A DNA stretch of 5,306 bases from an uncultured bacterium (GTDB lineage: Bacteria > DRYD01): positions 1 to 5,306 of the forward strand of contig CAKZQG010000009.1 of the NCBI GenBank assembly GCA_937139605.1, given 5' to 3'. Made by a program: the position numbers and the translations under genes. Shown here piece after piece: positions 2-5,306 of this stretch (position 1 is the stretch's first letter; every line of letters begins with the position of its first letter). The notes under the pieces were generated by a model. The model saw only the letters and a program-made list of their open reading frames with translations. It ran no database searches and was not told the origin of the DNA.

Positions 2-1183
2 CCCCGGATTAGATACATTAAATACACAATTTGTACCTAAACTAAAATCACTTGGCATCTTTAATCCATATCCAACTCCTCCAACATTAATATACCTACT
101 AACAAAGAAACCTCCATCTGTTGTTGGAAACATTGTAGGTAAAACCACTTGAGAATTCCCACCACCTTTTGCACTCAATTTTATCTGATTCATTATACTT
201 AAATCATTTTTATTTATTTTTAAAAATATTAAATTATTTTGCGTTTCATTCGTTGTTATCCCTATCCCTATATTCCCATCACTTAAAAATGTCCCCGAAT
301 ACCTACCATTTAAACTACTCAAACTATACTCCTTTGAAACACTTACACTTAAACTACTTAAATTACTTATATCTATCTTCGATATCACTAAATTATTACT
401 ACTATTTTTATCTATTAAATATAAATAATTTTCATCCATTATTGGAAATTGATGTTGATCACCATTGGTATTCACATTAACTGCTTGACTTAAATCCTTC
501 TTTATTATTACTACACCATAAGGATAATTATAACTATAAGTAGCTATATAATTACTATTTTGAGATATACTTGCAAAATTATAACCACTTATTTGTTTAG
601 AACCTACTATACTTAAATTACTTAAATTTAACTTTATTATATATCCATTTAAACTTACTCCATATAAATTTGTATTATCCGTTATTAAGGCAATAACACC
701 ACTATTAGAATATCTTTTAAGAATGTTTAAATTTCCCGTATTTTTATCTATTTCTCCTATTATTCCATCATTGTTATACCATCCACCAACATATAGCTTT
801 GTATTATCATTTGGATTAAAAAAAGAATTACTTAATCCAATGTTAGTTGCTCCTGAAGCAGTATAATATTTCGCATAATTTAAAGTTAAATCAGGATTTA
901 TCTTTATTATTGCATACTTCATTGTTCCATCATCTTGCCAACCAGTTATATAGTAATTATTTCCATCTAATAATGCTCCATTATACCAATCATTTCCACT
1001 TGAAGTATCAATATGAACAGCTCCGTTAGTTAATGTTATTCCTCCCCCTGATCCTCCTCCTATTGAACCACTACCTAATAGGTTTGTAAATTTATTATCA
1101 CATGACCCACAGCTTGTTAAAAACAACACTATAGCTGATAATATAATACCTACAAATATAAGTAATATTTTACTTTTTCTCAT
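2..1183 (-). CDS. Secreted lipoprotein, beta-propeller-like, 3' end outside window
   Basis: An open frame of 394 codons runs from the ATG at 1183-1181 off the left edge without a stop, so the C-terminus is missing. The start is well supported: AGGAGGT lies seven bases upstream. Residues 1-25 are a lipoprotein signal peptide, with basic residues at 2-5, a hydrophobic stretch at 6-22 and the lipobox L-T-S-C, so Cys25 should be lipidated after signal peptidase II cleavage. A Gly/Ser-rich tether follows (about 37-48, with two GGG runs). The rest is rich in Asn, Ser, Tyr and Gly, with recurring short beta-type stretches such as NNYYITGW, KLYVGGW, NLYGVSLNGYIIKLNLSNL and NYLYLIDK about every 40-50 residues. 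That pattern suggests a WD40/YVTN-like beta-propeller, which is inference. No catalytic motif is visible. It probably sits on a membrane facing outward, in a binding or structural role. The specific function is unknown. Unlike the two genes to its right it shows no lesion. Confidence 0.85.
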   Translation of the reverse strand, partial: MRKSKILLIFVGIILSAIVLFLTSCGSCDNKFTNLLGSGSIGGGSGGGITLTNGAVHIDTSSGNDWYNGALLDGNNYYITGWQDDGTMKYAIIKINPDLTLNYAKYYTASGATNIGLSNSFFNPNDNTKLYVGGWYNNDGIIGEIDKNTGNLNILKRYSNSGVIALITDNTNLYGVSLNGYIIKLNLSNLSIVGSKQISGYNFASISQNSNYIATYSYNYPYGVVIIKKDLSQAVNVNTNGDQHQFPIMDENYLYLIDKNSSNNLVISKIDISNLSSLSVSVSKEYSLSSLNGRYSGTFLSDGNIGIGITTNETQNNLIFLKINKNDLSIMNQIKLSAKGGGNSQVVLPTMFPTTDGGFFVSRYINVGGVGYGLKMPSDFSLGTNCVFNVSNPG

Positions 1184-1285: not shown

Positions 1286-2743
1286 CTATTTTATCTTTTC
1301 ATATTCAAAATTAATAACATTCTTTTTTACTTTATCAAACTCTATTCCTATTATGTATATTTTTTCATAATTTAGATATTTTTTGTGATACTCTTTTTCT
1401 TTAATTTGTTTTAAAGCCTTCCCTTTTTCTCTTTGATTATCTAACACCTTAAACTCCATTATAACGAAAGTTATATGAAATATATATACTATCTTTTCAT
1501 CCACCATTACAGTAATATCTATCCGCCCTTTAGATGTATTATCTTCTATTATCACATTTAATCCTGTTGTATATAACATACTATATACTGCTATTACATA
1601 ACTATATTCCTCTTTTAAATACATATAACTTATTGCACTTATTAATATCTCTATTTGTTCTTTTAATTCTTCTATTTTCTCTATTTTTAATATCTCTATT
1701 ATTTTTTCTGCTATTACATTTACCCTTGATTTTTGTTTTACTAAATTATACAATATATCTCTATTAAATGATACTCTTACCTCTTTATTCGGAAATCCTA
1801 ACTCAAATAATACCCCATTTTCACTTACCTTATAATCCTTTATTGTTAAATATCCACTTTGAAACATTATTGCTTCTATTTCTATCTCTTCTACGTCAAA
1901 TTTATTTAATAAACTCTCATCTGCTTTTATCCCTTCTAATTCCACTATATTATACTCCTTCTGTTTTATTAACTTTATTAAAAAACTTGGCGTTCCTGTT
2001 TCATACCAATAGTTCCTTATCTCTTTTTTTCTTAAATATAACAACACATCAAATGGATTATATACTTTATCAGCTAAAAAATTATACCCATTATACCATT
2101 CCTTTAACTCTTCTATATTCACATTATCCAAATACTCTTTAAAATAATATTCTAATTCTTCTTGGGTATATCCGCATATATCTCCATATTCTTTACTTAA
2201 TGAAATATCTTCTAACTGATTTAACCCACTAAAAAGAGATACTTTTGCAAATTTTGAAACCCCCGTTACTAACACAAACTTTATATATCTATCTAACCCT
2301 TTTAACACTGAATAGAAACTCTTTAATGTTTTTCTTACCTCTTCTGCTTCTTTTCTTTCTTCTATTACATCTAATATCGGCTTGTCATATTCATCTATTA
2401 ATACCACCACCTGTTTTTTATATCTCTTATCTATCTCTATTATTAAATTTTTCAGTAATAAGCCTACATGCCTTACCTCATTTTCAAATTTTATCTCGTT
2501 CCTTTCATAATTTAATCTTAATTCATCACATATTACTTCATATAATTCACTTACTGTTTTTATATCCGCTGAAAAATCTATTCTTATTACTGGGTACTTT
2601 TCATTCCAATCCCATTTATCTTCTATGTATAATCCCTTAAATAATTCTCTTTTAGATTCATATAAATATTCTATTGTTGATAATAATAACGACTTCCCAA
2701 AGCGTCTTGGTCTGCTTAAAAATATATATCCTCCACTATTCAC
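1286..2743 (-). CDS. AAA-ATPase-like protein with C-terminal PD-(D/E)XK nuclease domain (N-terminally disrupted gene)
   Basis: The 485-codon frame belongs to the family with an N-terminal AAA-ATPase-like domain (PF09820 type) and a C-terminal PD-(D/E)XK domain (PF08011/DUF1703 type). Its members are common accessory proteins of unproven role, possibly in defence or mobile-element biology. Residues 11-18 (RPRRFGKS) are the Walker A motif and 112-120 (VVVLIDEYD) the Walker B. TGVSKFAK at 160-167 is a conserved family block. G-R-I-D (406-409) and E-F-K (430-432) supply the nuclease Asp and E-x-K residues, and a KALKQIKEKEYHKKY helix follows. Residues 422-428 (FHITFVI) come from the palindromic insertion at 1460-1480. 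The GTG at 2743 has no ribosome binding site and is internal to the family domain: conserved residues (DKTKYIYEL) continue upstream to 2770. The real start was near 2884, giving about 509 residues without the insertions. As it stands, a pseudogene or a much impaired gene. Confidence 0.85.
   Translation of the reverse strand: MNSGGYIFLSRPRRFGKSLLLSTIEYLYESKRELFKGLYIEDKWDWNEKYPVIRIDFSADIKTVSELYEVICDELRLNYERNEIKFENEVRHVGLLLKNLIIEIDKRYKKQVVVLIDEYDKPILDVIEERKEAEEVRKTLKSFYSVLKGLDRYIKFVLVTGVSKFAKVSLFSGLNQLEDISLSKEYGDICGYTQEELEYYFKEYLDNVNIEELKEWYNGYNFLADKVYNPFDVLLYLRKKEIRNYWYETGTPSFLIKLIKQKEYNIVELEGIKADESLLNKFDVEEIEIEAIMFQSGYLTIKDYKVSENGVLFELGFPNKEVRVSFNRDILYNLVKQKSRVNVIAEKIIEILKIEKIEELKEQIEILISAISYMYLKEEYSYVIAVYSMLYTTGLNVIIEDNTSKGRIDITVMVDEKIVYIFHITFVIMEFKVLDNQREKGKALKQIKEKEYHKKYLNYEKIYIIGIEFDKVKKNVINFEYEKIK
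1460..1480 (-). repeat. Palindromic mini-element, short form (21 bp), in frame in ATPase-like gene
   Basis: The plus strand reads TATAACGAA, one A, then GTTATATGAAA. TATAAC and GTTATA pair as a 6-bp stem over a GAAA loop. The first nine and last eleven bases are identical to the ends of the 34-bp copy at 2771-2804. It adds seven codons, FHITFVI, between VYI and MEFKV. Family members read straight through a strand of the VYI(M/I)EFK type at this point, so the element is an insertion and not ancestral sequence. Confidence 0.75.
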
Positions 2744-2948: not shown

Positions 2949-2976
2949 TTGAATAATTTTACTTGAATAATTTTGC
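2949..2976. repeat. Imperfect 14-bp tandem duplication at the 3' end of the kinase-repeat gene
   Basis: TTGAATAATTTTAC (2949-2962) is followed directly by TTGAATAATTTTGC (2963-2976), 13 of 14 bases identical. The right copy encodes the last residues (KLFK) and the left copy overlaps the TAA stop at 2961-2959 and continues past it. The 74 bp from here to the ATPase start region (2885-2958) holds no gene and no convincing terminator. Confidence 0.75.
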
Positions 2977-4665
2977 AGCCTTTTCTGGACTAATGCGATT
3001 TCTTTTACAGATTATCGCTTGACTTAAAGTAAATCCTGCATTTTTCCATTTTATCGCTTCACTGACATTAAACTCATTCTCTTCCCATCGCCTTGCTTCC
3101 CCTGGTTCAAATCCCTTATCTCTCCATTCCACTGCTTCACTTACATCAAATCCTGCATCTTTCCATTCTTTTGCTTTTTTTACATCAAATCCAATCACCA
3201 TCAATTCTATCGCTTCACTTACACTAAACCCAGCATCTTTCCATTCTTTTGCTTGCTCTGAATCAAAGCCTATATATTTCCATTCTAGTGCTTGACTTAA
3301 ATTAAATTCATTACTTTTCCATTCCTTTGCATTATTTAAATCAAATCCATTTTTTTTCCATTCTATTGCTTCACTTATATTAAATCCATTATATTTCCAT
3401 TTCTTTGCCTCATTTAAATCAATTCCGTTTTTTTTCAATTCTATTGCTCGTTGTAAGCTAAAATTATTTATTTTCCATTCTAATGCTTCAATTATATTAA
3501 ACCCCGCTTTTGTCCATTGATAATAAAAATTAATAACTATTATCAATATCACAACAGCAATTATTTTGGCTATATCTTTCATAACAAATATAATTGCATT
3601 TTTTATAATTATCATATCCTGATTATCCTGATTTAACTTTATTATCTCATTAGCACTATATCCTTTAGATTTAAACATTTTAGCTTGAACAGGAGTAATT
3701 CCCTGTTGTCTTAAAAGTTTAGCTTCATAAGAATTAAAACCAGATAGTATCCATTCCAATGTATCTTGTATAGAAAATCCATTTTTTTTAAATTTTATTA
3801 TCTCATCTACTGAGACTACATTCTTAATTACTTTTTTCTTTAATTTCTTAGCATCATTAAAATTAATTCCATTTTTAAACAATTTAACCGCTTGCTCTAA
3901 AGTAAAACCTAAACTAATCCATGCATTAGAATTAAAACCCTTAGATATAATATTCATCATCTCTGATAAATCCTTTATTACTTCATTACTTATCAGTTTT
4001 TTCCATTCTAATATTTCTTCTAATTGTTTTATTCCAAAATTATAAAACACTATATACTCCTTTAATGATATTTTCTTATTAATCATTTCTTCTATTTTAT
4101 TCACATCTAATTTCATTTCTAAATAGGTTTTTAAATCTTCTATAGGTATTTTTAAATCTTTAGTAAAATAAAGAACTTTCTTTAAAACTAAAGAATTATC
4201 TTCAAAAAATATAGCATCTTTAGGATTAAATCCCGCATTTTTCCAATTATATGTCAATTTTCCTGATTTCATTCCTGCTTCTATCCACTCTTTTGCCTCA
4301 CTTACACTAAATCCTTCCTCTTTAAAGGTAATCGCTACCTTGGGATCATTTACAATTTCCATCCATTCCCTTGCAGTTTTTTCTGTAAATCCTTCCCTTA
4401 ACCATTCTTCTATTTTTACTTTCTCATATTGCTCTATATCTTCATCTACATAATCTATTACTTCCTCATCATTTATCCATTTATTTACTTCCTCATATCC
4501 CCATCTTTTACTATAATCCCTGTTTAATAAATTTCTTAATAATTTTCTTATTTTTTCATCTATGTTATCGCTTATTAAAACTCCATTTGTAAATATCTGA
4601 TTCATTATTACTTGTTGCGATAAATTTTCAAAAGGATGTCTCTTTTGTATAATTTCTAATAACAC
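2959..4665 (-). CDS. Membrane protein with 13-residue tandem repeats; C-terminal part of a split Ser/Thr kinase
   Basis: This 568-codon frame stays open up to 4725, where it begins with APETFSNYFGKEIDYWALGIVLLEII, the kinase APE motif and helix F. The GTG at 4665 is therefore internal and has no ribosome site. Residues 1-64 finish the kinase C-lobe (HPF at 10-12; the Arg of subdomain XI in NRDYSKRW near 54). Degenerate 13-residue units follow at 88-153 and 249-343, for example FKEEGFSVSEAKE. About 365-382 is a single hydrophobic segment (KIIAVVILIIVINFYY), probably transmembrane. Residues 384-568 are 14 regular repeats of consensus W-K-x-x-G-F-x-x-x-E-A-x-E. By analogy with PASTA kinases the regular repeats could be an outward sensor, but similar repeats on both sides of the membrane segment make that uncertain. 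Together with 4726-5306 it was one gene. Confidence 0.8.
   Translation of the reverse strand: MLLEIIQKRHPFENLSQQVIMNQIFTNGVLISDNIDEKIRKLLRNLLNRDYSKRWGYEEVNKWINDEEVIDYVDEDIEQYEKVKIEEWLREGFTEKTAREWMEIVNDPKVAITFKEEGFSVSEAKEWIEAGMKSGKLTYNWKNAGFNPKDAIFFEDNSLVLKKVLYFTKDLKIPIEDLKTYLEMKLDVNKIEEMINKKISLKEYIVFYNFGIKQLEEILEWKKLISNEVIKDLSEMMNIISKGFNSNAWISLGFTLEQAVKLFKNGINFNDAKKLKKKVIKNVVSVDEIIKFKKNGFSIQDTLEWILSGFNSYEAKLLRQQGITPVQAKMFKSKGYSANEIIKLNQDNQDMIIIKNAIIFVMKDIAKIIAVVILIIVINFYYQWTKAGFNIIEALEWKINNFSLQRAIELKKNGIDLNEAKKWKYNGFNISEAIEWKKNGFDLNNAKEWKSNEFNLSQALEWKYIGFDSEQAKEWKDAGFSVSEAIELMVIGFDVKKAKEWKDAGFDVSEAVEWRDKGFEPGEARRWEENEFNVSEAIKWKNAGFTLSQAIICKRNRISPEKAAKLFK
2962..3516 (-). repeat. Array of 14 protein repeats of 13 residues (39 bp each)
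   Basis: Fourteen units run from the Trp codon at 3516-3514 to the end of the gene, the last being extended to 16 residues. Examples are WKYNGFNISEAIE, WKKNGFDLNNAKE and WKDAGFDVSEAVE. Trp, Lys, Gly-Phe and Glu-Ala are the most conserved positions. Units tend to alternate between an ending A-(I/L/V)-E and an ending A-K-E, suggesting a 26-residue structural unit such as a helical pair. A 22-bp block is identical at 3155-3176 and 3233-3254, 78 bp (two units) apart, which points to recent growth by two-unit duplication. Confidence 0.9.
3520..3573 (-). other. Predicted transmembrane segment of the kinase-repeat protein
   Basis: Codons here give about 18 mostly hydrophobic residues (IAKIIAVVILIIVINFYY), directly followed by the first regular 13-residue repeat. 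It is the only clear membrane-spanning stretch in the protein and separates the degenerate repeats from the regular array. Orientation is not decided by the flanking charges, though Lys residues lie just before it on the kinase side. Confidence 0.65.
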
Positions 4666-4725
4666 TATACCTAATGCCCAATAATCTATTTCTTTTCCAA
4701 AATAGTTTGAAAATGTTTCCGGTGC

Positions 4726-5306
4726 TTATCTATTGTTCCCTTAAAATGAGTAGTTATTATCTTTGATACATCTTCCTCATTTAAACTTGATATCCCAAAA
4801 TCCGTTAATACTAATTCTATGGGTTCATTTTTTCTTACTAAAATATTTTGTGGCTTTATATCCCTATGTATTATATTCTTTTTATGTAATACATTTAAAG
4901 CTTCGCTTATATGTTTTACTATAGTTTTTAGTTTTTCTATTTTTATATCTTTGTTTTTATAAAATTCTAATAAATTGCCATGTTTTATATATTCTTGAAT
5001 TTCATAATATCTTTGGGTATTTTTATCATAGCCATAAGATATAATATTTATAAAGTATTGAGGAAATTCTTGATAAAGTTCTTGAACTCTTTTAAGAATC
5101 TCAAATTTAGGTTTAAAACCTTTTCGGTATAGCTTTAAAAAATATTGATTATTGTTTTTAGGGTATTTTTATCATAGCCATAAGATATAATATTTATAAA
5201 GTATTGAGGAAATTCTTGATAAAGTTCTTGAACTCTTTTAAGAATCTCAAATTTAGGTTTAAAACCTTTTCGGTATAGCTTTAAAAAATATTGATTATTG
5301 TTTTTA
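4726..5306 (-). pseudogene. Ser/Thr protein kinase, N-terminal part, frameshifted and 5'-truncated
   Basis: In the frame covering 5159 to 4728 the translation is a eukaryotic-type (Hanks) kinase. NNQYFLKLYRKG holds the beta3 Lys (codon 5135-5133). The hinge-like QEYIKHGNLLEFY, the catalytic loop HRDIKPQN (4868-4845) and DFG (4802-4794) follow, then GTID, where the frame is lost. The expected continuation, APETFSNYFG, is in another frame from 4725, with only two bases (4727-4726) between: a loss of one, or more likely four, bases in the activation segment. Unshifted reading ends at TAG 4688-4686. The glycine-rich loop would lie beyond the window edge. The upstream copy of the 146-bp duplicate is a second break: reading through it hits TAA at 5137-5135. 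No start codon with a ribosome site is visible in this stretch. Confidence 0.8.
5015..5306. repeat. Perfect 146-bp tandem duplication at the window edge
   Basis: Positions 5015-5160 and 5161-5306 are identical over all 146 bases. The unit codes for the kinase N-lobe from the beta3 strand to YGYDKNT. Because 146 is not a multiple of three, the duplicate shifts frame and the upstream copy cannot be joined in frame to the rest. The second copy ends exactly at the last base of the window, which is what one would see if an assembler stopped inside or wrapped a repeat. Either a real duplication or a contig-end artefact. Confidence 0.9.

Follow-up and report, generated by a model that had tools for sequence, protein, structure and literature searches.

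The window, i.e. the 5306-bp stretch of DNA analysed here in full, carries on its minus strand a Hanks-type protein kinase domain followed by a long array of 13-residue units, W-K-x-x-G-F-x-x-x-E-A-x-E. We put at about even chances its interpretation as a membrane-anchored Ser/Thr kinase equipped with a helical binding scaffold of variable length. Kinase motifs, array and membrane segment were all recorded in the window, and related proteins displayed arrays of very different lengths.

The window corresponds to the whole of contig C9 of MAG G000 (1.88 Mb, 45 contigs, 88.5% complete). The host most probably belongs to Ca. Calescibacteriota: among named relatives, this kinase-array protein occurs in Candidatus Calescibacterium nevadense (L050, L051) and in a Tibetan MAG (G002, L047), the latter from the same family as the window. 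From these relatives, we infer a hot-spring habitat. Genomes available for comparison were one from the same genus, four from the family and one from the order.

Organization of the kinase-array region

The features of the region are given below in the direction of transcription, from the contig end inwards.

5015-5306, no strand: 146-bp stretch present twice in tandem at the contig end (100% identity; contig C11 overlaps at both copies)
4728-5160, minus strand: kinase domain, frame-0 part, from the end of the N-lobe (beta-3 lysine in NQYFLKLY) through HRD and DFG to GTID (Pfam Pkinase, translation)
4726-4727, minus strand: reading frame broken within the activation segment, GGA ACA ATA GAT / AA / GCA CCG GAA (paralogs and intact relatives)
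4417-4725, minus strand: kinase C-lobe (APETFSNYFGKEIDYWALG...), -1 frame, continuous with ORF 2959-4665 (PF00069 positions 164-258, E 5.6e-11)
3637-4404, minus strand: degenerate stretch of the 13-residue helical array, covering residues 88-343 (10 units pass the threshold; the model displays about 18 helices)
3517-3615, minus strand: single membrane helix, residues about 351-383, core IAKIIAVVILIIVINFYY (hydropathy maximum 2.6)
2971-3516, minus strand: regular array of 14 units of 13 residues each (score matrices, DNA period, AF2)

ORF 2959-4665 (minus strand, 568 aa) thus runs from the end of the kinase domain through the degenerate array and the membrane helix to the regular array. At the other side, position 5160, the right-hand coordinate of the original prediction, turned out to be the edge of a duplicated stretch and not where the gene starts, 5161-5306 being an exact copy of 5015-5160. 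Contig C11 (1-77) overlaps the window by exactly 77 bp, equal to the start of each duplicate. The terminal duplication is most likely an assembly-graph artefact: 77 bp is likely to be the assembler's k-mer, and a graph with k = 77 would leave such an overlap at a repeat. The true N-terminus of the window kinase lies on contig C11; the kinase gene there starts with an N-terminus of its own, MGNLNSDDIN..., preceded by a GGAGG ribosome-binding site.

The 13-residue array

With a 13-column score matrix, ORF 2959-4665 yielded 24 units, 10 of them ahead of the membrane helix and 14 behind it, whereas 200 shuffles averaged 0.2 and never exceeded 2. A stricter matrix, trained on the 14 last units only, still recovered 22 units versus 0.04 in shuffles, with an exact 13-residue spacing in 16 of the 21 gaps between them. 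Likewise, Tandem Repeats Finder reported a DNA period of 39/78/156 bp, and residue-identity autocorrelation reached 0.39 at lag 13 and 0.48 at lag 26, values elsewhere (lag 39 excepted) being at most 0.10. The array is far beyond chance, which confirms the one initially announced.

The 14 regular repeats described after the membrane helix were also retrieved, both as 14 units by the matrix and as 14 helices in the AF2 model. Of the "11 or so" degenerate repeats, the degenerate stretch itself was confirmed and 10 of its units scored; this part exceeds 11 units, since the AF2 model of the whole ORF displayed about 18 equally spaced helices before the membrane helix. Judged from that model, the real number of units in the window is closer to 32 than to 25.

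Conservation by column was examined over 270 units. Phe6 (90%), Ala11 (85%), Gly5 (84%) and Glu/Asp/Gln10 (81%) were the most conserved, followed by Ser/Thr/Asn/Asp7 (58%) and Pro8 (50%). According to known helix-capping rules, Gly at position 5 would be a helix C-cap, followed by an N-cap box.

The AF2 model of residues 384-568, built with 11 related rows, was consistent with this column pattern. It reached a pLDDT of 95.2, although AF2 scores of tandem repeats can run high without proving the superhelix shape, and it comprised 14 helices of 8 to 10 residues, each unit being made of one 9-residue helix and a 4-residue loop; the alpha-helical nature originally proposed for the array was thus borne out by the predicted fold. 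The model of the full ORF had a pTM of only 0.40.

Fold searches with the array model gave no clear natural match in the PDB (none with E <= 0.001 by Foldseek) and nothing significant among viral models. The top VIA match consisted of designed proteins (Z 6.8 with an rmsd of 15). The best structural resemblance was to designed left-handed alpha toroids (5byo, 4yxz and 4yxy), with Z values of 5.8-6.8, below what the tool's notes regard as meaningful for repeats; for 4yxy (Z 5.8), 77 residues were aligned at 3.2 A. These toroids are artificial, are built of two-helix units and have no sequence kinship to the window array.

Kinship with the DotG/IcmE repeat

The original prediction took the array for a new one. 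A repeat unrelated to anything known was not supported, since a profile search among PDB sequences reached the repeat region of DotG/IcmE (T4BSS) with an E value of 1.4e-16. The Pfam family concerned, PF25296 'Decapeptide', was matched by 10 of 12 related arrays. The window scored 34 bits (E 2.7e-8), below the 45-bit gathering threshold, while the array of C. nevadense scored 66.2 bits, above it; the kinship is therefore real, though the window copy is not a formal member. The NCBIfam DotG model (NF033900) matched the window with E 6e-7 and 27.8 bits, short of its full-length score of 750.

Both arrays share a common core, W/L-K-x-A-G-F-S/T, and both are membrane-linked. The window array differs from DotG by its period of 13 instead of 10 residues, by Trp in place of Leu, by its fusion to a kinase and by the lack of a VirB10 domain, for which the window protein gave no Pfam match. 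The DotG repeat unit is 30 bp long (PMC2639597) versus 39 bp in the window, and alignment of the two required a three-residue gap in nearly every unit, so that each unit differs by nearly one helical turn between the two repeats. We call the 13-residue repeat a sister of the DotG/IcmE repeat rather than a member of it. DotG repeats have been placed in the secretion-system stalk, a part absent from the purified reconstruction (PMC7511231); no solved structure of the DotG repeat region was found for comparison, more of DotG being now traceable according to a 2025 review (PMC12857230).

As initially stated, the window protein had no PASTA, WD40, TPR, Sel1 or NHL match in Pfam, PASTA domains being absent at E values up to 10. 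PASTA-type kinases (PknB, PrkC) nevertheless have a comparable layout, i.e. a Hanks kinase, a membrane helix and a C-terminal repeat region; by contrast, repeats in the window are short helices, and the array of its relatives precedes the membrane segments. TPR and Sel1 units contain two helices in about 34-40 residues, whereas the AF2 model shows a single helix every 13 residues. No paper on the 13-residue repeat was found in the literature.

Paralogs, relatives and distribution

Two further kinase-array copies were found in the genome of the window, on contigs C28 (86% identity across the first 224 residues of the second ORF) and C26 (65% identity). Gene neighbourhood was not conserved, the C28 and C26 copies having unrelated neighbours. 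On contig C39 (L011 8200-8766 and upstream), a kinase-less array remnant with an in-frame TAG was observed beside a hemB-like gene; it is a decayed fourth copy. Among relatives, the G002 protein (1041 aa) combines an intact kinase with an array and membrane segments. The kinase of C. nevadense is also intact and is followed by at least 26 units. A second array of this species contains 55 units and two terminal membrane segments and precedes genes for a PP2C phosphatase and an AAA ATPase, both natural partners of a Ser/Thr kinase. Among Calescibacteriota members, the number of units ranged from 7 to 55 (strict threshold).

A back-translated two-unit pattern, which misses arrays lacking the exact W-K/G-F codons, was searched in about 85,000 species and matched five genomes and one viral contig. 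The profile search of 386 sampled genomes gave matches in six, including the window's own, G014 and G247. The G247 match (E 1e-7) was discarded as a likely antisense frame in a high-GC gene. Arrays were fused to a kinase in Calescibacteriota and occurred without one outside this group. Lipoprotein-type signal peptides were recorded on arrays of G026 (L027), Methylomirabilota (L046) and G202 (1898 aa), and another G026 array (L026) carries an N-terminal membrane anchor. L049 is labelled 'Flavobacteriales', perhaps through a binning error.

The giant lipoprotein-like ORF of G202 (L088, contig C142) consists almost wholly of W-K-x-A-G-F units with a mixed spacing of 23 and 27, i.e. long and short units alternate. 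The viral contig (IMGVR_UViG_3300042965_000182, 66 kb) encodes two array proteins of 196 and 400 aa (L044, L045), with 10 and 13 units at the strict threshold and no membrane segments. PHROGs matches of the array were weak and scattered, and tblastn gave no match of the array in phage and plasmid collections.

Membrane segments

All membrane calls were based on hydropathy alone. They supported the single membrane helix originally proposed for the window protein, in its middle, between kinase and regular array. Segments were C-terminal in C26 and C. nevadense, located both inside the array and at the C-terminus in G002, and absent from the C28 paralog. The last 14 units of the window copy are placed beyond its single membrane helix and probably face outside. 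The arrays of C26 and C. nevadense, placed between the kinase and C-terminal membrane segments, would instead be cytoplasmic.

A split kinase gene

The presence of a Hanks-type kinase domain, as first claimed, was established by its motifs: IIHRDIKPQN, TDFGIS and APETFSNYFGKEIDYW were all present, APE being in the -1 frame. The Pfam Pkinase profile (PF00069) exceeded its cut-off, in two pieces, with E values of 4e-20 to 1.2e-19 for the upstream one (4719-5141). The two pieces do not form one continuous reading frame but are separated by the break at 4726-4727. The frame-0 ORF continues past the break to a stop at 4686, and stops occur at the junction in both frames, just before it in the -1 frame and soon after it in frame 0. 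The alleged fusion of kinase and array is consequently not a single open frame in the window, although their linkage is real in intact relatives.

These relatives display the consensus GTxxYxAPE at the break site, read as GTTHYIAPE in C. nevadense, GTFLYSAPE in G002 and GTILYLAPE in another kinase of the same genome, on contig C11, which indicates that about four bases are missing at the window junction. An identical junction was found in the C28 (about 25,720) and C26 (about 11,430) paralogs (break loci L009 and L010). One active chain from each of the three copies is therefore in doubt.

Differences among the three copies fell mostly on third codon positions, both upstream (19/29, 23/32 and 14/17) and downstream of the break (12/13, 18/20 and 14/17). 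Between window and C26, differences at codon positions 1, 2 and 3 numbered 6, 3 and 23 upstream and 1, 1 and 18 downstream. In the 20 codons from the break to the first possible start of the second ORF, window and C26 differ in six codons, five of them synonymously in the -1 frame, while nearly all differences were non-synonymous when read in frame 0. This substitution pattern indicates that both kinase halves are under purifying selection. Window and C26 differ at +5, +8, +11 and at -24 and -27 nt from the break, which makes a recent large conversion tract unlikely in this comparison; window and C28 are identical over the 50 nt after the break, where such a tract is possible.

Assembly error was rejected as the main cause, since three separate contigs with different flanking substitutions carry the break. 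Simple tRNA slippage was discarded because TAA directly precedes GCA in the -1 frame, and no -1 slippery heptamer was seen by eye before the break. Tetranucleotide phase variation was likewise set aside, there being no tandem 4-nt array at this site. The break represents either an ancestral loss that is still decoded or tolerated, or a lesion spread via short conversion tracts, or the mark of decaying copies.

Hairpin inserts and other features of the window

The AAA-ATPase_like/PDDEXK_9 gene at 1286-2895 is interrupted by hairpin inserts of 21-35 nt, composed of TTTCATATAAC, a variable inner stem and (T)CGTTATA, at 2771-2804 and 1460-1480 (minus strand). Further copies were recorded elsewhere (L105-L112, L116 and L140). 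The pattern had 32 matches in the window genome, none with a reversed control and none in six relatives of the order. A loose scan of viral contigs gave 106 matches, about chance level for such a pattern, and was discarded. All inserts that were read lay within AAA-ATPase_like genes, at four fixed sites:

YV^DKT: 34 nt
S^LFSG: 33 nt, in inverted orientation
WY^NG: usually a tandem pair
VYI^MEFK: 21 nt, in frame

Inner stems vary with pairing kept (ACGCA/TGCGT, ACACA/TGTGT, AGGC/GCCT and GGTA/TACC). Most inserts break the frame, coding between them is largely open, and third-position bias was 0.61 in insert-carrying genes versus 0.60 in uninterrupted copies. They may be MITE-like elements that target TA and were spread by gene conversion. 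By analogy with Magnusiomyces mitochondria (PMC5009743), bypass-type decoding of these inserts is possible.

A 14-bp tandem duplication (2.7 copies, 2815-2852) further breaks the start of the AAA-ATPase gene. At the contig end, ORF 2-1183 (minus strand) encodes a 394-aa lipoprotein-like protein whose signal ends in LFLTSCGSC and whose frame is open at the contig end; it gave only a weak LVIVD-repeat match (E 0.009) and is perhaps a beta-propeller.

Proposed role of the array

The scaffold reading would apply to at least three paralogous Hanks-type Ser/Thr kinases, each with a solenoid of 13-residue units C-terminal to the kinase and, in most copies and relatives, with membrane segments. Each unit would provide one short helix, from position 8 to position 3 of the next unit; Gly5 would end this helix, Phe6 and Trp1/Ala11 would pack in the core, and Ser/Thr/Asn/Asp7 together with Glu10 would cap the next one. 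The whole array would act as a membrane-tethered scaffold of adjustable length, bringing partners or substrates to an active kinase.

Receptor-like behaviour with an outside sensor, the role originally suggested, fits the topology of the window copy only. In such a receptor kinase, the 14 regular units would form, in the PASTA manner, an extracytoplasmic sensor for an envelope ligand, with dimerisation via the membrane helix. The position of that single helix speaks for it, as do the related arrays that look extracytoplasmic (the lipoprotein-like L027, L046 and G202 proteins and the anchored L026) and the precedent of PASTA kinases (PMC6213207). Yet the arrays of C26, G002 and C. nevadense would lie mostly on the kinase side, and C28 has no membrane segment, which leaves a sensor role rather unlikely. 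We give very little credence to the array being a target of its own kinase, a switchable rod loosened by phosphorylation of Ser/Thr7. Ser and Thr are indeed common at this predicted helix N-cap (53 T and 43 S in 270 units), but the position takes Asn, Asp, Glu or Lys as readily, which fits plain helix capping better, and kinase-less array proteins occur in other phyla.

Other alternatives concern the break itself. It may have inactivated an ancestral copy that was then propagated by duplication or gene conversion, the window copy being a pseudogene. The occurrence of the break in three of three kinase copies, the C39 remnant with its stop and missing kinase, the broken neighbouring AAA-ATPase gene and the possibility of a conversion tract under about 30 nt around the break would all suit such decay. 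Both halves are nevertheless open in the three copies, substitutions on either side lie mostly at third positions of the proper frame, and the differences close to the break reveal no homogenised tract relative to C26; we therefore regard decay as possible but doubtful. The genes could conversely be functional, a ribosome or RNA joining the two frames so that recoding makes or controls the active kinase. This is improbable in our opinion and was retained because the same species harbours frame-breaking hairpin inserts in AAA-ATPase genes with constrained flanking coding.

Implications

Should the break be decoded, recoding would take place within a kinase activation segment, a rare situation, and bypass-type decoding could be a general trait of the lineage. 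As for the array, it represents a kinase-linked repeat class outside the usual catalogue of sensor repeats. It also shows that the DotG repeat, hitherto known from a single secretion-system protein, belongs to a broader set of short repeats made of one helix, whose periods are 10 and 13 residues and which are present in several phyla and a viral contig. The predicted rod of one helix per 13 residues is simple enough for testing and engineering.
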